In this document: one piece after another, positions 36,707 to 44,707 of the stretch
Layout of the letters: each line of letters starts with the position of its first letter
Position numbering within the stretch: the stretch's first letter is position 1
Assembly (NCBI GenBank): GCA_019454105.1
Contig: CP075364.1
Coordinates: 2,607,362 to 2,671,361 of the forward strand
Direction: 5' to 3'
From: Fimbriimonadaceae bacterium
GTDB lineage: Bacteria; Armatimonadota; Fimbriimonadia; Fimbriimonadales; Fimbriimonadaceae
Length of the DNA stretch: 64,000 bases
Position numbers and translations under genes: made by a program
The notes under the pieces: model-generated
What the model was told of the DNA's origin: nothing
Seen by the model: the letters and a program-made list of their open reading frames with translations, nothing else
Database searches by the model: none

Positions 36707-38233
36707 ATGGTTTGGAACACTCGATCGGCAATGGTTTTGGCCGCGACCCTTGTGGGTGCTGCCGCCTTCTCCACCTTTGACGGCCCTGCGGCCGTGGCCT
36801 GGCGCTGGGCCCAGTCAGCGACGCTCTCGCCGTCGGGGTCGCCCGTCGTCGACGGAGACTCCGTCTACGTCGCGGTTGGTGGCCGGATCTACGGCTTGAA
36901 CCGCGTCACAGGCAACCAACTCTGGCGGTTCCCCGTCGCCGAGCCTCTCGAATCGCAGTTTGTCTCAGGGGCCTCGATGGGCAATGGAGTGGTCGTCGCA
37001 GCAGACGACAACCGGAACATCTTTGCGATCGACGCCAAGACTGGGGCGGTCAAGTGGCAGTTCGCGACCCCTGAAGGAGTCTTGGGCACACCCGTGATCG
37101 CAGGGTCGACGGTCGTCGCCCCGCTGTCCAACAACAGCCTCATCGCCATCGACGCCGAGACCGGCCAGGCCCGCTGGGACAAGCCGATTGCGATGCCGGA
37201 CGGCGTCTTCGCCAGCCTCGCCACGTGGCAGGAGAACGTCATCGTCCTGACGAGGCAGCCTGCCGTCGTCAGCATGAACGCGGCTAGCGGCAGGATCAAC
37301 TGGACCGCTCGCGTGTCCAGGCTTTCGGCGACCGCGAGCGCCGCCGTCTATGGCGACGCGGTCTTCGTGAACTCAGGCAACTTCATTTCGGCGATTCGGA
37401 TCGGCACCGGCGGTCGGAAGTGGGAGCAGCGAGTCGACGAGGACCTCGTTTTTGGCCCGGCCGCCTCAGAATTGGGCGTCGTTTCGGTTTCTCGAACAGG
37501 GAAAGTCTTCGTCCTCGATCTGAATGGCCGTTTTGTGCTCCGACAGGGAGTCACCGTGGACTCGGTGCCTGTCGCTCAGCCATCCTTTGTCGGCTCGACA
37601 CTCGTGGTCGGCACCTCGAACGGCCTGATCAACGTGCTGGACCCTAAGAGCGGGGACGTCGTTTTCAACTACCTGGTTCCCCCGCTTTTCAAGACGGCCA
37701 GGACCGCCGACGGCGGCTCCCAAGCGCAAATGACCGTTCCGATCGCCGGGCCGGCCACAGTCTCGGGCGACACCATGCTCGTCCTCGCAAGGGACGGCTC
37801 GCTGCTGGCTTTCGATAAGAACATCGGGGTTGATCTAACGCCTCCGTCCGTCACCATGCTTTGGCCCAACCCGGGCGATCAAGTCGCGGGCAAGCCGCCG
37901 ATGGAAATGGCCTTCATGCTCAGCGACGCGTCTTCAGGAGTGCGCCCGGATTCGGTGAAGATCATGATCGACTCCACCGAGTATGCGGGTCGATACCAAC
38001 GGGACGGGCTCCTGACGCTCGCCATCTCTTCTGGCGGGCCGAACCAGCCACTGATGGACGGCAGGAGAGAGATCACCGTCATAGCCAAGGACTGGCTGGG
38101 CAACGAGACTCAGCGCAAGTTCGTGCTGCTGGTCGACAACACCCTCCCGGCCCTCGGCGGATTGCCCCGACGAGATGGCGCCGACGCCGGTGGAGGCGGA
38201 GGGCGCGGCGGTGGACGGCGCGGAGGGCTCTAG
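36707..38233 (+). CDS. PQQ-type beta-propeller protein with C-terminal Ig-like domain
   Basis: It has 508 residues with a signal-like N-terminus (MVLAATLVGAAAFSTFDGPAAV). Repeats of the type DAKTGAVKWQF, DAETGQARWDKP and SGRINWTARV mark PQQ-enzyme/BamB-like propeller blades. At about residue 385 the sequence changes to PPSVTMLWPNPGDQVAGKPPMEMAF, an Ig-like or fibronectin-like module seen in exported proteins. The C-terminus ends in Gly/Arg-rich repeats. No catalytic metal-binding residues for PQQ dehydrogenase are seen, so a structural role is likely. Its 3' end overlaps dprA. Confidence 0.82.
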   Translation: MVWNTRSAMVLAATLVGAAAFSTFDGPAAVAWRWAQSATLSPSGSPVVDGDSVYVAVGGRIYGLNRVTGNQLWRFPVAEPLESQFVSGASMGNGVVVAADDNRNIFAIDAKTGAVKWQFATPEGVLGTPVIAGSTVVAPLSNNSLIAIDAETGQARWDKPIAMPDGVFASLATWQENVIVLTRQPAVVSMNAASGRINWTARVSRLSATASAAVYGDAVFVNSGNFISAIRIGTGGRKWEQRVDEDLVFGPAASELGVVSVSRTGKVFVLDLNGRFVLRQGVTVDSVPVAQPSFVGSTLVVGTSNGLINVLDPKSGDVVFNYLVPPLFKTARTADGGSQAQMTVPIAGPATVSGDTMLVLARDGSLLAFDKNIGVDLTPPSVTMLWPNPGDQVAGKPPMEMAFMLSDASSGVRPDSVKIMIDSTEYAGRYQRDGLLTLAISSGGPNQPLMDGRREITVIAKDWLGNETQRKFVLLVDNTLPALGGLPRRDGADAGGGGGRGGGRRGGL

Positions 38234-39215
38234 GCTCGCCCAACGCCTCGCCTCGGCCTGGGTGGGACCAGCCAAGGCAAGAAGGTTCCTGAAAGAGGCC
38301 GACGCTTCGTCCTTCACCGAAGCCGAGGCCTCTCGGTTTCTAGCGGCGGACGTGTCCGTGGGTGTTGGCCCAGGCTTTTCGACCAGGTTGGAGCCGCATC
38401 TGCCCGAGGGCCTCAACGAGAACTCCGCCGTCCGGCCATGGCTCTTCGTCCAGGGACGAGGAGAGACCCTCGACAAGCCAATGATCGCGATCGTCGGAAC
38501 CAGGACGGCGACGACTTATGGGCAAATGATCGCCGCCAAGTTCAGCGAGTCGTTCGCCCAAGCTGGGGTCACGGTGGTGAGCGGGGGCGCCCCTGGCATC
38601 GACGCAGCCGCTCATGCTGGATCCCTTAAGTTTCCAGACTCCACCGTCTGCGTGCTCCCTTGCGGGGCCGACCGCGACTACCCCGCCCGCCATCGACAGC
38701 TTTTGGAAGAGGTGCGTTCGAAAGGTTGCACAGTTTCACAATACGCCTGGGGCTCGCCCTGCCTGCCCAAGAACACGGCAGAAAGGGACACTCTCATTGC
38801 TGCCCTCGCGAAAGCTGTGGTCGTGATCGAGGCTCCGGCCGAGTCCGGATCGCTCATCACGGCGCAGAAGGCCAAGGCCCTGGGTCGGCCCATCTTCGTC
38901 GTCCCCGGCCCCGTCACCGCTTCCACGTTTCTCGGCTCTCACCGTCTGATCCGTGAGGGAGCCGAGCTCGTTTGGGAGCCGGAGCAGGTGCTCGGTGCCC
39001 TTGGCCTAAGAGACGCCCCGGCGCCCGCTCTCGAGAGGATAACGAACGGAGTCTGGCGCGACGTTGCGGCCCACCTAGAAGGCGGGCCCTTGCGGGTCGA
39101 TCATTTAGCCGAAGCCCTCGGGATGCCACCGTCGGAACTCCTGGTGGTCCTCACCGAGATGGAGATCGAAGCGAAAGTGAAGTCGGGGCCCGAGGGGTAC
39201 TCTCTCGTTTGGTGA
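38211..39215 (+). CDS. dprA: DNA processing protein DprA (Smf)
   Basis: The start is chosen at GTG 38211 (preceded by GAGGG at good spacing); ATG 38175 is possible. It binds incoming single-stranded DNA and loads RecA in natural transformation. The Rossmann-like DprA core has MIAIVGTRTATTYGQ, VVSGGAPGIDAAAHAGSL, AESGSLITAQKAKALGRPIFVVPGP and SGGAP. An N-terminal helical hairpin (RLAQRLASAWVGPAKARRFL) resembles the SAM/HhH region. A C-terminal winged-helix-like tail begins at about 285 (RITNGVWRDVAAHLEGGPLRVDHLAE). It is coupled to nagA by GTGA. Confidence 0.93.
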   Translation: MDGAEGSRLAQRLASAWVGPAKARRFLKEADASSFTEAEASRFLAADVSVGVGPGFSTRLEPHLPEGLNENSAVRPWLFVQGRGETLDKPMIAIVGTRTATTYGQMIAAKFSESFAQAGVTVVSGGAPGIDAAAHAGSLKFPDSTVCVLPCGADRDYPARHRQLLEEVRSKGCTVSQYAWGSPCLPKNTAERDTLIAALAKAVVVIEAPAESGSLITAQKAKALGRPIFVVPGPVTASTFLGSHRLIREGAELVWEPEQVLGALGLRDAPAPALERITNGVWRDVAAHLEGGPLRVDHLAEALGMPPSELLVVLTEMEIEAKVKSGPEGYSLVW

Positions 39216-40261
39216 GCCTGCGATGTCTGGCCTTGGGGCCCTTGGGCTGGGGGCGGTACCGAGTCGATTGGACCAACGGGAGCCCCAGTCTCGAGCCGAC
39301 GGACGAACCCCCTGAGGCGATCTTCACGCCCGGTCTGGTGGACCGCCACATTCATGGAGCCTTCGGCATCGACTTCATGACCGCAAGCCAAGACGAGCTT
39401 GCGAACCTGAGCCTTCGCCTCAAGGATCTTGGCTATGAGTCATGGCTCCCGACGACGGTCACGGCCTCGGTCGAGAGCGTCCTAGCCGCGGTCGCCAACC
39501 TCCCGAACGACCCCGCCCCTTGCGGTTTCCATCTTGAAGGGCCGTTCATCAGCCCGAGCTACCCGGGAGCCCAGCCCCCGGAGTGGATCATATCGCCAGA
39601 CGAGGCGTCGCCCGCTTGGGATCCAATCTTCGACCACCCAAAACTTCGCGTCGTGACCCTGGCCCCAGAGACGCCCGGATGCCTCGACTTGGTTCGCCGG
39701 TTGGCGAACCGTGGTGTCGTGGTGAGCCTGGGGCACACGGACGCGACCGCCGAACAAGCCCGTGCAGCGATCGAGGCCGGGGCCAGCCAGACGACCCACA
39801 CCTTCAACGCCATGCGGCGCTTCCATCACCGGGAACCTGGCGTCATCGAAGTCGCCTTGACCGACCCTCGGGTTGAGTGCGAGCTGATCTATGACCGCCG
39901 ACATGTCTCCAAGGAGGCCGCTTCCTTGCTCTTGCGGGCCAAGGGGCTGGAGGGAGTCGTAGGCGTGAGCGACTCAACCGCCGCGACCGGAATGCCAAAC
40001 GGCACCGAGCTTGAGATGTGGGGACACTTGTGCCGGGTGCAAAGCGGAACCGTCCGGATCGCCGAGACCGGGGCCTTGGCGGGCTCGACTTCGACCCTGT
40101 TGGACTGCTTCCAGGCTCTCGCTGACGATTTCGGCCCCGAAACCGCTGTCCGCGCCTGTTCCGTCAACCCTCGTCGGGTTCTTGGCACCCATAAGCCTCG
40201 GGTTTGGTGCGTGTTCTCCCTCCGACACACCCTGCTTGAAACGCGCGGCCCTGTGCTATAG
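39212..40261 (+). CDS. nagA: N-acetylglucosamine-6-phosphate deacetylase
   Basis: The start is GTG 39212, overlapping the dprA stop (GTGA), giving 349 residues. It releases acetate from GlcNAc-6-P to make glucosamine-6-P. The metal site residues are in FHLEGPFISP (Glu), VSLGHTDATAEQ (His) and TTHTFNAM (His). The catalytic Asp is in GVSDSTAATGMPNG. VDRHIHGAFG near the start is the HxH pair. The C-terminal 30 residues are unlike the family: after NPRRVLGTHK it reads WCVFSLRHTLLETRG. It seems to lack the normal GSLxxGxxADLVV tail. Confidence 0.85.
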   Translation: MSLRCLALGPLGWGRYRVDWTNGSPSLEPTDEPPEAIFTPGLVDRHIHGAFGIDFMTASQDELANLSLRLKDLGYESWLPTTVTASVESVLAAVANLPNDPAPCGFHLEGPFISPSYPGAQPPEWIISPDEASPAWDPIFDHPKLRVVTLAPETPGCLDLVRRLANRGVVVSLGHTDATAEQARAAIEAGASQTTHTFNAMRRFHHREPGVIEVALTDPRVECELIYDRRHVSKEAASLLLRAKGLEGVVGVSDSTAATGMPNGTELEMWGHLCRVQSGTVRIAETGALAGSTSTLLDCFQALADDFGPETAVRACSVNPRRVLGTHKPRVWCVFSLRHTLLETRGPVL

Positions 40262-40262
40262 T
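40236..40262 (+). promoter_or_regulatory. Likely promoter of kimA inside the end of nagA
   Basis: TTGAAA (40236-40241) and TATAGT (40257-40262) lie 15 bp apart, 30 bp before the kimA ATG. The -35 and -10 match the housekeeping pattern well, though the spacer is short. The leader would be about 22 nt, too short for a riboswitch. Confidence 0.5.
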
Positions 40263-40291
40263 CCCTCGGGGCGGCACCGTGCCGTCCGCGT

Positions 40292-42151
40292 ATGGCGCTC
40301 GCAACCCGACTCAAGCACTTCCTCTTAGGCAGGCCGATCGCGACCAAGAGGGCCCACCACGAAAGGCTACCGAAGCGCTTCGCTCTGCCGGTTTTCGCCT
40401 CGGACGCGCTCTCCTCAAACGCTTATGCGACCGAGGAGATCATGCTCGCCCTCAAGATCTTCGCTCCGGCGGGCCTCGGGCTTGCGTTCCTTTCCCATAC
40501 CGTCGAATTCGCCGTCGCGATCAGCATCCTCATCTTCATTGTTGCGATCAGTTATTATCAGACCATTCACGCCTACCCCCAAGGCGGAGGTTCTTACACC
40601 GTTTCCAAAGAGAACTTAGGGGAGTTTCCAGGAAAAGTCGCTGGAGCGGCACTCCTCATCGATTACATCTTGACGGTGTCAGTGTCGATTTCGGCCGGGG
40701 TCTTGGCCATCGTTTCATTGGTTCCAACGCTTCAAGCCCACATTGTCCCGCTGGGTCTGTCCGCGATCTTTCTGATGACGATGCTCAATCTCCGTGGCAC
40801 CCGGGAGAGCGGAGTCGTTTTCTCGGTGCCAGCTTACGGATTCATCCTGTTGATGATCAGCATGATCGGCTATGGGCTGACACTCGCCCCGGCGCCCGTC
40901 CCGGTGGAAATGCTCGAAGCGCAGCAACGCGCGGCAGCTACGGGCCAACCATGGTATGCCTTGGTCGGCGTGTTCCTGATCCTCAAGGCGTTTTCAAGCG
41001 GATGCGCGGCGTTGACCGGAATTGAAGCCATATCCAACGGGACCACGGCCTTCAAAGAACCAGTCGCGAGAAATGCCTCGACCGTCTTGATCGTCCTCGC
41101 CGTGCTCTTGTCAATAATTTTCTGCGGTATCAGCATCTTGGCCGAGCGGTTCCATGTGATTCCAATGGAGGTGTCGGAACCGGGATTCAAGACCGTCGTC
41201 GCACAGATCGCCACGGCTGTGTTCGGGGAGGGGCCGCTCTTCGGACTGATCCAGGTCATCACTGCCGCGATTCTCATCCTGGCCGCCAACACCGCCTATG
41301 CTGGCTTTCCGAGACTCGCTAACCTAATCGCCCAGGACGGGTTCCTGCCTCGTCAGTTCGCCAGCCTCGGCGACCGACTCGTGTTCCAAAACGGCATCAT
41401 CGTCCTGAGCATCGTGGCGGGCATGCTCATCGTCGGGTTCGGCGGCGACACTCACAAACTCGTCCCTCTCTACGCCATCGGTGTCTTTATGTCGTTCACG
41501 CTCAGCCAGTACGGCATGGTCGTGTTCTCAAAGCGTAAAGGGAAGATCGTTCCAATGGTCATCAGTCTGGTCGGTGGCACCGTGACCCTGGTCATCACGT
41601 TCGTGGTGGCGGTCTCGAAGTGGACAAGCGGGGCCTGGCTCGTACCGCCGGCCCTGATCGTCATGCTCCTTTTCTTCGACCGCGTCAAAAACCACTATAA
41701 GAAACTCGGTCAAGCCCTGAGCGTCCAACCCGACGACACGCTTCCGAAGGTCCGATCGACCGTCTTGCTCTTGGTGCCCCGGATGCATAAAGGCATTCTC
41801 CAGGCTGTCGCTTATGCCCGCTCCATGACCACCGACGTGAGGGCCCTCCATGTCACTTTGGATCCAAAGGGAACGGGCCGAATCAAGGAAGACTGGGCCA
41901 AGTTTGGGGCCGACATTCCCCTGGTCATCTTAGAATCCCCTTACCGGTCTTTGGTCGAACCGATCACCGAGTACATTGATGAAGCGATCGAGGACTCTCC
42001 CGACCTCTTGGTCACTGTGATCGTCCCTCAGGCCGTCCCCAAGAAGTGGTGGCAAGGCATGCTCCACTCCAACGCGGCCGTCCCGCTGAAGCTTGCCCTC
42101 GCGGGTAGAAAGAACGTCGTCATCACCAACATCCGCTACTTCATCACCTAG
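40292..42151 (+). CDS. kimA: APC-family potassium importer, KimA type
   Basis: It has 619 residues, about 12 membrane helices and a cytoplasmic C-terminal domain. It matches B. subtilis KimA (YdaO) from memory along its length: FASDALSSNAYATEEI, YYQTIHAYPQGGGSYTVSKENLG, DYILTVSVSISAGVLAI, LKAFSSGCAALTGIEAISNG and AANTAYAGFPRLANLIAQD. The C-terminal module (RSTVLLLVPRMHKGILQAVAYARSM) resembles a USP fold. KimA is a proton-coupled K+ symporter that c-di-AMP inhibits in Bacillus. The next gene, 2 bp downstream, is a STAS-USP protein. Confidence 0.93.
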   Translation: MALATRLKHFLLGRPIATKRAHHERLPKRFALPVFASDALSSNAYATEEIMLALKIFAPAGLGLAFLSHTVEFAVAISILIFIVAISYYQTIHAYPQGGGSYTVSKENLGEFPGKVAGAALLIDYILTVSVSISAGVLAIVSLVPTLQAHIVPLGLSAIFLMTMLNLRGTRESGVVFSVPAYGFILLMISMIGYGLTLAPAPVPVEMLEAQQRAAATGQPWYALVGVFLILKAFSSGCAALTGIEAISNGTTAFKEPVARNASTVLIVLAVLLSIIFCGISILAERFHVIPMEVSEPGFKTVVAQIATAVFGEGPLFGLIQVITAAILILAANTAYAGFPRLANLIAQDGFLPRQFASLGDRLVFQNGIIVLSIVAGMLIVGFGGDTHKLVPLYAIGVFMSFTLSQYGMVVFSKRKGKIVPMVISLVGGTVTLVITFVVAVSKWTSGAWLVPPALIVMLLFFDRVKNHYKKLGQALSVQPDDTLPKVRSTVLLLVPRMHKGILQAVAYARSMTTDVRALHVTLDPKGTGRIKEDWAKFGADIPLVILESPYRSLVEPITEYIDEAIEDSPDLLVTVIVPQAVPKKWWQGMLHSNAAVPLKLALAGRKNVVITNIRYFIT

Positions 42152-42153
42152 CC

Positions 42154-42957
42154 ATGATCGTCGAGTCTTATGAAGACGTCATCGTCCTGTCAGGATCCCT
42201 CAGGTCCAACTTCTGGGAGACCATCCATACGGCTGTCTCGTTGACGCTCAAAAGGCATCCGACCGGCGTGGTCATCGACTGTAGCGGGATCACTGAGATC
42301 ACGACCGAAGGGGCCGACACCTTTGTCGACGCCATTCGCTTCGTTGAAGACCACGACCAGGCCCGGATCGTCGTCGCCGCTGTCCCGCCCCACGTCAAGG
42401 AAGTGCTTCGCCAGGTGCCAGACGTTCGGTCGCAGCTGCCCGAGGCCTCCACTGTGGAAGAGGCCCGCAGGTCTCTCGACCTGCTGGTGGAAGAAGAAGA
42501 CTTAGGCAAAAAGAAGCGCAAGGAGCCCACCAAAGCTTTCGACCGCATCATCGTCGGGGTCGTGAGCAGCGACGAGGGCGACACTCAGATGCTCCATGTG
42601 GTCGAGGAGATGGTCGAGAACCTTCCTGCCAAAGTGGTGCTCGTCGCCCCAATCGTCGTGCCTCGGGACAAGCCGGTCTCGGCCCCCATGCCGGTCGAAG
42701 AAGAGAAAGCGGCGGCGAGCCTCGACGCCGGCCGGAACCAGCTGATGAATCGGGGCATCCCTTGCGACATTCGGCTCGAGCGCCATCGCGAGCTCTCCAC
42801 CCTGATCCAAGAAGTCGGCGAAGAACTGAACGCGGCCCACATCGTGGTGGGACTCGCCTCGGACCTGAAAGGCGACGAGAGCTACATTAAAGTGCTGCGT
42901 TCGGTGATCGAGCGCGTGAAGCGGCCTCTCGTCATCGTCCGCGGCGCCCGCGTCTAG
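42154..42957 (+). CDS. STAS-domain plus UspA-like fusion, coupled to kimA
   Basis: It has 267 residues. Residues 1-115 have the STAS pattern: YEDVIVLSGSL, VVIDCSGITEITTEGADTFVDAIRF and RIVVAAVPPHVKEVLRQ. The D-C-S-G segment is like the serine loop of anti-sigma antagonists. Residues about 130-267 fit the universal-stress fold: FDRIIVGVVSSDEGDTQMLHVV and HIVVGLASDLKGDESYIKVLRSVIERVKRPLVIVRG. The typical ATP loop G-2x-G-9x-GS is not clear. The gene begins 2 bp after kimA and likely forms one transcript with it. It probably tunes the transporter. Confidence 0.8.
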   Translation: MIVESYEDVIVLSGSLRSNFWETIHTAVSLTLKRHPTGVVIDCSGITEITTEGADTFVDAIRFVEDHDQARIVVAAVPPHVKEVLRQVPDVRSQLPEASTVEEARRSLDLLVEEEDLGKKKRKEPTKAFDRIIVGVVSSDEGDTQMLHVVEEMVENLPAKVVLVAPIVVPRDKPVSAPMPVEEEKAAASLDAGRNQLMNRGIPCDIRLERHRELSTLIQEVGEELNAAHIVVGLASDLKGDESYIKVLRSVIERVKRPLVIVRGARV

Positions 42958-44258
42958 CTCGTTCGAGAGACAACGAACTGATCTCGGGCCCGTCCCGTCA
43001 AATGGATCGTCCGGTTCCCATCGCGAACAGGGATCTCCTCGATGAGGCGACCGTGGGCGTCGCGTGCGACCAGGTAGGTCACACCAGCCCGGGACTTGAC
43101 GCTCACCAGGCAAACGGTCCTCGATTCAATCTCATCAAACTGGATTCGGACAGAGTTCAGGGGAATCGGTTCGACCGAGTTCTTCAAAGCTTCACGAATC
43201 TGGCCCTCGAAGAGGTCTCGGGGCTTTTTCGACCGAAAGGCCCGAAGTTCGTCGTCGATTCCGACAGGGGTTCCGTCGTCGTCGATTCCGATCCAGAGTT
43301 CGCCTCCCTCGCTGTTCATGAAAGCCGCGATCGTTCTCAGGCACCCGTGACGTAGGCCAAGGTCGCGCGAGGAAGATTTCGGATTCCAATTGAAGCCCGA
43401 CTTGAACTCGGTCCTATGGTCTTCGATCGTGGGCCACTGGCCCTGGGTGACGGACCGTCCGACCCTGATCACGCTCCTGAAGTCAGGAATCGGGAGCCTT
43501 GTGCCCGCTGGGTCTGCCAGGATCCATGTCGAAACGAGTCGGGCACGGGCCCAAATCGCCGAAGACAGGACGTCTGCGAACCCTTGGATCGAATCGAGCA
43601 CCCAATCCTCCAGAGGCCCGGTCTCGGCCGCGACGGCGATCACGGCCGCGAGCCGTCCGCCAGTTCCGCAGTCAGGATCGACCACTGCGACGCCGGGCGC
43701 GAACTGAGCCCTGCGAGCTTCGGCCAAGCGCTCAGGCCACGTAGGGGCTTCCTGAGGCAGAACTGCCCGGTCCAAGGCTTCGAAAAACTGAGCCGAGGCA
43801 GTCAAACTCCAAGGCTGCGCCATCCTCTCGATCAAACCCGTCACCAACGAATCCGAGACCAAAGTCAGGGGTTGTACGGCCTGGTCGCCCAATTCTGGAG
43901 TCAGGATGCCCGTGCCGACGAAGGGAACCTCACCAGCCAGGTTAGCCACCAATCCCCTGGCACGAGCGTTCGGCTGGCCCAGTCCTTGGAGAGCCGCGAT
44001 CGAGACGCGCTGGAAAAGCGAGTAAGGCCCCGGTTCCCGCTTCCAATCGTCGATCAATGCCTCGAGATAATCCGAGCGTCCCTTGAAGGTGAGTTGACCG
44101 GTAGCTTGCAGGCTCTTCACCGTCAGGATCTTGGCGCACGCAGTCTCGACGGCCCTCCTCTTCGCGCATGGATCGGCCCGTCCCGATCCGAGCCAACGGA
44201 CGCGGTCGGACTCGGCTGACAAGAACTCAGACAGGTCTCCCGCCAGATCGCTTGTCAT
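42954..44258 (-). CDS. Protein with a DNA-methylase-like middle segment and a Schlafen AlbA_2 domain
   Basis: Start ATG 44258 overlaps the vsr stop (ATGA); 434 residues. Residues 1-150 are a helical region without a recognised fold. At 194-201, VVDPDCGTGGRLAAVIAVAAE matches motif I of N6-adenine DNA methylases (DPxCGTGG) by eye. The later stretch GFADVLSSAIWARARLVSTW is like the Gxx...A..RL helix that follows. The catalytic NPPY motif is absent. From 279 the AlbA_2 fold starts: EDHRTEFKSG, AAFMNSEGGELWIGIDDDG and VGIDDEL. AlbA_2 domains occur in defense proteins and may bind nucleotides or nucleic acids. Together with Vsr it looks like an accessory module. Confidence 0.72.
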   Translation of the reverse strand: MTSDLAGDLSEFLSAESDRVRWLGSGRADPCAKRRAVETACAKILTVKSLQATGQLTFKGRSDYLEALIDDWKREPGPYSLFQRVSIAALQGLGQPNARARGLVANLAGEVPFVGTGILTPELGDQAVQPLTLVSDSLVTGLIERMAQPWSLTASAQFFEALDRAVLPQEAPTWPERLAEARRAQFAPGVAVVDPDCGTGGRLAAVIAVAAETGPLEDWVLDSIQGFADVLSSAIWARARLVSTWILADPAGTRLPIPDFRSVIRVGRSVTQGQWPTIEDHRTEFKSGFNWNPKSSSRDLGLRHGCLRTIAAFMNSEGGELWIGIDDDGTPVGIDDELRAFRSKKPRDLFEGQIREALKNSVEPIPLNSVRIQFDEIESRTVCLVSVKSRAGVTYLVARDAHGRLIEEIPVRDGNRTIHLTGRARDQFVVSRTS

Positions 44259-44707
44259 CGACCTAAGGCCCCTCGGATTCGGTCCACGACGTCGCCCATC
44301 CCGTGCCTCAACTCGCACTCCCATATGGTGAGCACGGTGAAGCCCAGTCGTTCAAGTTCGGCCCGTCGTTCCTCGTGCCGGGCCCGGTTTCGCTCAATTT
44401 TGGTTTGCCAAAAAAGGGCGTTCGTGGAGGGCATCCTCGCGCGTCCACAGTCGTGGCCGTGCCAAAAGCATCCATGGACAAAGACGGCCAATCGGGACGG
44501 GCCAAAGACGATGTCGGGCGTGCCAGGAAGCTTGCGGACGTTCTTACGATAGCCACGCAACCCTTCGGCCCAGAGAGCTGATCGAAGGGTCACCTCGGGT
44601 TTGGTGCCCGTGCTCCGGTTGCCCTGCATCGACCGTCGAGTCGACTCAGCGACGGTCAGGGTTTCCCGCAGTCGGTTGAGGCCGTAGAGCTTGCCAGTGT
44701 CAGCCAC
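44255..44707 (-). CDS. vsr: Very short patch repair endonuclease (Vsr)
   Basis: It has 150 residues from a GTG start. Vsr nicks 5' to the T of T:G mismatches that arise from 5-methylcytosine deamination. The N-terminal helix has TRRSMQGNRSTGTKPEVTLRSAL. Asp65 in TPDIVF is the metal ligand. VFVHGCFWHGHDC holds His83 and the zinc residues Cys80, His85 and Cys87; Cys131 in WECEL completes the zinc set. The usual partner, a cytosine-C5 methyltransferase, is not adjacent. Instead the gene is coupled to the AlbA_2 protein gene by a 4-bp overlap. Confidence 0.93.
   Translation of the reverse strand: MADTGKLYGLNRLRETLTVAESTRRSMQGNRSTGTKPEVTLRSALWAEGLRGYRKNVRKLPGTPDIVFGPSRLAVFVHGCFWHGHDCGRARMPSTNALFWQTKIERNRARHEERRAELERLGFTVLTIWECELRHGMGDVVDRIRGALGR

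Follow-up and report, generated by a model that had tools for sequence, protein, structure and literature searches.

KimA is a potassium importer under the control of c-di-AMP. STAS and USP proteins have been described in connection with other transporters: in Halomonas elongata, the operon-encoded USP TeaD acts on the TeaABC transporter (PMC12159084), the USP Rv2623 binds the transporter Rv1747 (PMC5549992), and one ABC transporter includes MlaB, a STAS protein that stands alone (PMC7367683). No STAS or USP partner of KimA was found described in open-licence PMC papers, nor did these contain the term 'STAS-USP' or a fusion of STAS and USP domains together with a permease. The 64,000-nucleotide stretch analysed here (the window) belongs to the 2.74 Mb, single-contig genome of a Fimbriimonadaceae bacterium, and contains a KimA gene followed directly by a gene for a STAS-USP protein. 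The features of the locus are as follows:

38175-39215, + strand: DprA, upstream neighbour (Pfam)
about 39194-40261, + strand: NagA-like amidohydrolase, upstream neighbour (Pfam)
40292-42151, + strand: predicted KimA-type (KUP family) K+/H+ symporter, ORF of 619 aa (phmmer match to 6s3k/8b70)
42152-42153, + strand: intergenic gap between KimA and STAS-USP, 2 bp from stop to start
42154-42957, + strand: STAS-USP protein, ORF of 267 aa
42154-42489, + strand: STAS domain of STAS-USP, residues 1-112 (Pfam STAS, SpoIIAA 1thn_B, SpoIIAA profile alignment)
42277-42288, + strand: DCSG, residues 42-45, a generic STAS beta-strand motif aligned to SpoIIAA NLED
42301-42312, + strand: TTEG, residues 50-53, at the position of SpoIIAA DSSG (profile alignment, conservation)
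42535-42954, + strand: USP domain of STAS-USP, residues 128-267 (Pfam Usp, fold search, conservation)

The preliminary description had the KimA gene ending 2 bp before the STAS-USP gene, and both ORFs do lie at these coordinates. On the other side of the pair, a gene with a Schlafen/AlbA_2 domain (42954-44324, - strand) is convergent with STAS-USP, the 3' ends of the two overlapping, and itself overlaps a Vsr endonuclease gene (44255-44707, - strand); these two minus-strand genes may form a small pair for DNA repair or defence.

KimA and potassium import in this genome

Residues 7-617 of the window KimA match KimA of Bacillus subtilis (6s3k/8b70/8b71; E 3.5e-128), the sole protein matched by phmmer in the PDB, with 39% identity to the solved transporter over 591 aligned positions; the C-terminal cytosolic domain occupies about residues 466-619. 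The K+ ligands of KimA, given as D36, Y43, T230 and Y377 (PMC10284832), are all four present in the window protein and near-invariant across 157 aligned KimAs. The full-length homology and the complete set of ligands support the earlier assignment of this gene as a putative KimA-type K+ transporter. Among the positions that contact c-di-AMP, R337, V506 and H579 are retained, four are replaced (N580S, Q581N, S582A and W592G), and P479, another position of the c-di-AMP network, has no reliable alignment in the window protein. Because N580, Q581 and S582 are described as making amide contacts to c-di-AMP (PMC10284832), the impact of the three replacements there is uncertain.

Searches for the TrkH, KdpA and Kup families found none in this genome, with positive results in control searches, and KimA is present as a single copy, which probably makes it the main K+ importer of this organism. 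STAS-USP, with its sensor domain, is a concrete and testable partner candidate, and its host seems to have no major K+ uptake system besides KimA. One diadenylate cyclase is encoded in this genome, and a c-di-AMP cyclase was found in all 41 genomes searched. Control of the KimA/STAS-USP operon by a c-di-AMP riboswitch was ruled out, as an Rfam search of positions 39000-44500 (E up to 1) gave no match; two strong c-di-AMP riboswitches of the ydaO type are located elsewhere in the genome (C1:2567109-2567241 and C1:2699159-2699293), neither of them at KimA.

Domain build of the STAS-USP protein

Pfam assigns STAS to residues 12-88 and Usp to residues 129-263, both matches being barely above the cut-off. 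Conservation was assessed in an alignment of 83 homologues, drawn from 94 STAS-USP proteins that were chosen after dropping five short or misparsed ones (L035, L067, L193, L196 and L200); the 11 left out of the alignment have two USP domains or are very divergent. At E up to 0.01, STAS is matched in 73 and Usp in 52 of these 83. An AlphaFold2 model from 30 sequences reaches a mean pLDDT of 84.7, with a linker at residues 114-124 below 50. Modelled residues 1-110 match SpoIIAA (1thn_B, Z 15.0, 108 aligned), RsbS-type STAS proteins also being close, and modelled residues 129-263 match USPs, among them 6hcd_B (Z 16.2) and, at rank 5, TeaD (3hgm_A, Z 15.5). Two designed helical-repeat proteins that headed the list of another search represent repeated weak matches and were disregarded. 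Structure prediction supports both folds, including the STAS fold for which the preliminary description had wanted such a check, and the proposed domain build is genuine.

SpoIIAA-type STAS domains are controlled by serine phosphorylation, and the preliminary description had read DCSG as a loop of this kind, through whose serine KimA might be regulated. This part of the description did not survive alignment with SpoIIAA: DCSG falls on NLED, its serine on the beta-strand residue E51, and the exact motif is found in only 27 of the 83 homologues. The first serine of SpoIIAA DSSG, which we take to be the phosphoserine S58, aligns with residue 51 of STAS-USP, a threonine in the window protein, and this position is Ser or Thr in only five of the 83. 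The preceding residue 50 is much more constant (Thr/Ser in 73, Asn in 8, Asp in 1, Ala in 1); it comes just before a helix, and T50 fits the pattern of a helix N-cap. DCSG is thus a beta-strand motif of the kind usual in STAS domains, and with residue 51 variable the loop holds no conserved site of phosphorylation; phosphorylation of DCSG was set aside as unlikely, and regulation of KimA through phosphorylation of the serine in the STAS loop is very improbable. In the STAS domain, R71 and S93 are invariant across all 83 homologues.

The USP half has a signature of its own, [VI]PRxLPLxxPxPExE (with R171 and E183) followed by ERxR[DE] (with R210 and R212), in which E183 and R212 are found in all 83 homologues, R210 in 79 and R171 in 78. 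The model puts these four residues behind USP strand 2, at the beginning of the helix that follows, and where strand 3 ends; to judge from the predicted secondary structure, they would sit on the ligand face of the USP fold, where they could form an altered ligand pocket. The motifs described for ATP-binding USPs, G-X2-G-X9-G-(S/T), and for c-di-AMP binding of the KdpD type, (A/G/C)XSXSX2N(Y/F) (PMC8214093), are each present in 0 of 136 STAS-USP proteins, with a spacing of 8-11 allowed in the former, and ATP binding through the USP motif was ruled out on this count. Descent of the USP half from the cytosolic domain of KimA was also considered and rejected, having no sequence support (hhalign probability 0.1%).

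Association with KimA across Armatimonadota

STAS-USP is present in 28 of 41 genomes and 142 of 291 Armatimonadota genomes, KimA in 39 and 228, respectively. Both are found in 139 of the 291, STAS-USP only in three, KimA only in 89 and neither in 60, so that KimA accompanies STAS-USP in 139 of 142 genomes versus 89 of the 149 that lack STAS-USP (Fisher p 4e-17, uncorrected for relatedness). The three genomes with STAS-USP and no KimA comprise one that is 64% complete and two with weak USP-only matches. Among named records, those nearest to STAS-USP come from Fimbriimonadaceae and other Armatimonadota MAGs; a contig scan with patterns derived from a single family gave 29 loci, nearly all titled as Armatimonadota groups, with one titled as a Methanoregulaceae archaeon and one simply as 'bacterium'.

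Adjacency was counted in 139 of the 142 genomes (G101, G194 and G200, with weak USP-only matches, were left out). KimA lies directly upstream on the same strand at 101 of 138 testable STAS-USP loci, in many families, which argues against adjacency by chance. This count comprises 99 pairs recognized by script, L035, and a pair split over two contigs (L144 and L200 of G134); L128, where the contig ends 5 bp upstream, is excluded from the testable loci, and L177, where a piece of KimA comes after STAS-USP instead of before it, is counted as non-adjacent. In the window organism's own family the pair is adjacent in 46 of 53 (45 including L035, plus G134). The search for the same domain order beside other KimA homologs, suggested in the preliminary description, was thus positive across the phylum, well beyond the single strain to which adjacency might have been limited, and a phylum-wide partner gene of KimA is real. 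Gaps between the two genes, as set by the start codons that the script chose (n=99), are overlaps in 62 cases, exactly -4 bp in 49, and no longer than 15 bp in 88.

Operon-like spacing of this kind could by itself preserve gene order, and USPs are common stress proteins; as KimA also has c-di-AMP contacts of its own, STAS-USP might be a general stress protein that is co-expressed with KimA and neither touches it nor affects transport. Such an explanation is unlikely, given the co-occurrence in 139 of 142 genomes, the other small regulators that take the same place in other lineages, and the invariant residues in both the STAS and the USP domain, all of which suggest a specific job.

STAS-USP does not directly follow KimA at 37 of the 138 testable loci. 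The organism's own family has seven such exceptions, and inspection by eye places STAS-USP behind the NagA-like gene at five of them (L052, L053, L090, L098 and L107), where KimA is absent or has moved; DprA and the NagA-like amidohydrolase (38175-40261 in the window) are part of the family's conserved gene order, likewise at L052 and L053. Genomes G015 and G131 have lost the neighbouring KimA while keeping STAS-USP behind the NagA-like gene, and the KimA ortholog of G005 is about 38 kb from STAS-USP; STAS-USP can therefore work in trans or have another job. The pair is found in two of the four genomes of genus g16, and outer lineages, among them genus g92, have STAS-USP apart from KimA. Coupling is strong, yet these separated loci show that it is not obligate.

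The persistence of STAS-USP in G015 and G131, together with the orphan copies that many outer lineages carry at a distance from KimA and a STAS fold nearest to SpoIIAA and RsbS, would suit a protein that signals outward, as a stressosome- or anti-sigma-type switch reporting K+ or osmotic state to other partners, with KimA as a neighbour through the same stress. However, the scarcity of Ser or Thr at the phosphoserine position (5/83), a Pfam scan of seven neighbouring window genes that found no anti-sigma kinase among them, and an association with KimA too general for a chance neighbour make outward signalling unlikely.

The two halves of STAS-USP have evolved very differently. Mean pairwise identity among the 83 homologues is 51% for STAS and 27% for USP, STAS being the higher in 3402 of 3403 pairs, and the protein is therefore read as a fixed STAS part that carries an exchangeable sensor. 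Families f32 and f35 have a STAS-USP-USP protein, and L134, L151, L162 and L175 have STAS-USP and a separate USP gene. A lone USP follows KimA at six genes (L061, L062, L208, L270, L271 and L276), so STAS is dispensable in a KimA partner. KimA is followed by a TrkA pair at L205 and by a cNMP-binding protein at L060, and this natural range of partners, from STAS-USP and lone or tandem USPs to a TrkA pair and a cNMP-binding protein, suggests that bacteria exchange sensors on one transporter. No fusion of KimA with STAS-USP was seen. Two observations concern the transporter itself: at L061 and L062 (family f2, lone USP) the KimA cytosolic domain has an insertion of about 20-25 residues that interrupts the match near query residue 527, and the KimA-like gene of L195 (G237), although very divergent (end branch 3.6), still overlaps a STAS-USP gene.

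A second Armatimonadota KimA clade has no partners in the fetched stretches and lacks His579 in 36 of 36 members, mostly with QEN for HNQ. With partner status defined as adjacency within the fetched stretch, His579 is present in 98 of 99 KimAs that have a STAS-USP or USP partner versus 22 of 58 that have none. On the tree, one branch (support 88) separates the 36 partnerless, His-less KimAs from all others, so they count as one evolutionary event, which is no evidence of association (sign test p 1); the idea of a link between partner and His579 was dropped on this ground. At seven loci of this clade (L063, L254, L256-L259 and L265), a gene for a DUF4118 histidine kinase or an OmpR-type regulator lies immediately downstream of KimA, as judged by eye, two of the seven loci having been covered by Pfam; the arrangement resembles a KdpDE pair attached to KimA and is noted as a lead. 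A conserved ORF of about 115 aa lies directly after the His579-less KimA at four other loci (2143-2490 of L246, also L247, L248 and L249), and the one copy scanned has no Pfam match.

Proposed role and comparison with known systems

The reading that we prefer, and to which we give an even chance, is that STAS-USP is a dedicated, co-translated accessory regulator of KimA, with STAS as dock and USP as sensor. It is favoured by the adjacency and tight spacing of the two genes, their co-occurrence, the strongly conserved STAS half, the invariant residues of both domains, the other small regulators placed after KimA elsewhere, the retained R337 and H579 together with the c-di-AMP cyclases, the probable role of KimA as main importer, and the precedents TeaD, Rv2623 and MlaB; the non-adjacent loci, the lone-USP lineages, the lack of a KimA fusion and the missing nucleotide motifs speak against it. 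The slowly evolving STAS domain would dock on the cytosolic side of KimA, either on the cytosolic domain or on the TMH8-9 loop, by analogy with stand-alone MlaB or the STAS domain of SLC26, each of which acts on its own transporter. The fast-evolving USP domain would sense a small anionic ligand in its Arg-rich pocket, candidates being nucleotides such as c-di-AMP or AMP and not ATP bound through a Walker-type motif, and ligand binding would tune K+ uptake by KimA. Since KimA retains its main c-di-AMP contacts, STAS-USP would add a second input and not replace those contacts. In a stronger form, which is tentative and on balance doubtful, STAS-USP would be a true accessory subunit of KimA, and with its fixed STAS dock, exchangeable USP sensor (one USP, two, or a separate extra one) and novel Arg/Glu pocket would add a class to the regulators of K+ transporters, alongside the RCK/TrkA proteins. 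KimA would then gain a second ligand input, and STAS-USP would be, to our knowledge, the first auxiliary subunit known for the KUP/KimA family.

Comparison with known systems shows which parts of the locus are familiar. B. subtilis KimA is like the window KimA in its full-length homology, K+ ligands, cytosolic domain and the contacts R337 and H579; the window KimA differs in having STAS-USP encoded directly after it and in the changed positions N580, Q581, S582 and W592. TeaD (3hgm; fold match Z 15.5) is likewise a USP whose gene shares an operon with a transporter, in its case for an osmolyte, but it is a stand-alone, ATP-responsive protein without STAS and its partner is a TRAP transporter, whereas STAS-USP is without the ATP motif. 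The USP domain of KdpD with c-di-AMP (7ji4; Z 13.0) has the same fold, also lacks the ATP motif, and belongs to a protein of K+ control; in contrast to STAS-USP, it is part of a histidine kinase and has the motif (A/G/C)XSXSX2N(Y/F).

STAS-USP has the STAS fold in common with anti-anti-sigma factors of the SpoIIAA/RsbV type but shows no conserved Ser/Thr at the S58 position among its homologues, and it has the USP fold in common with ATP-binding USPs of the UspFG type but lacks G-X2-G-X9-G-(S/T). In MlaB and SLC26, STAS is a regulatory part of a transporter, and STAS-USP is matched by SLC26A11 (9iar_A, Z 14.5); these are other transporters, however, and have no USP domain. The TrkA/RCK proteins are separately encoded, ligand-sensing regulators beside a K+ transporter, as is proposed for STAS-USP, although their fold is unrelated and STAS-USP has no TrkA domain by Pfam. 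For K+ and osmolyte transporters, regulators encoded in the same operon are already known; a regulator with the STAS-USP build, on KimA, would be new.
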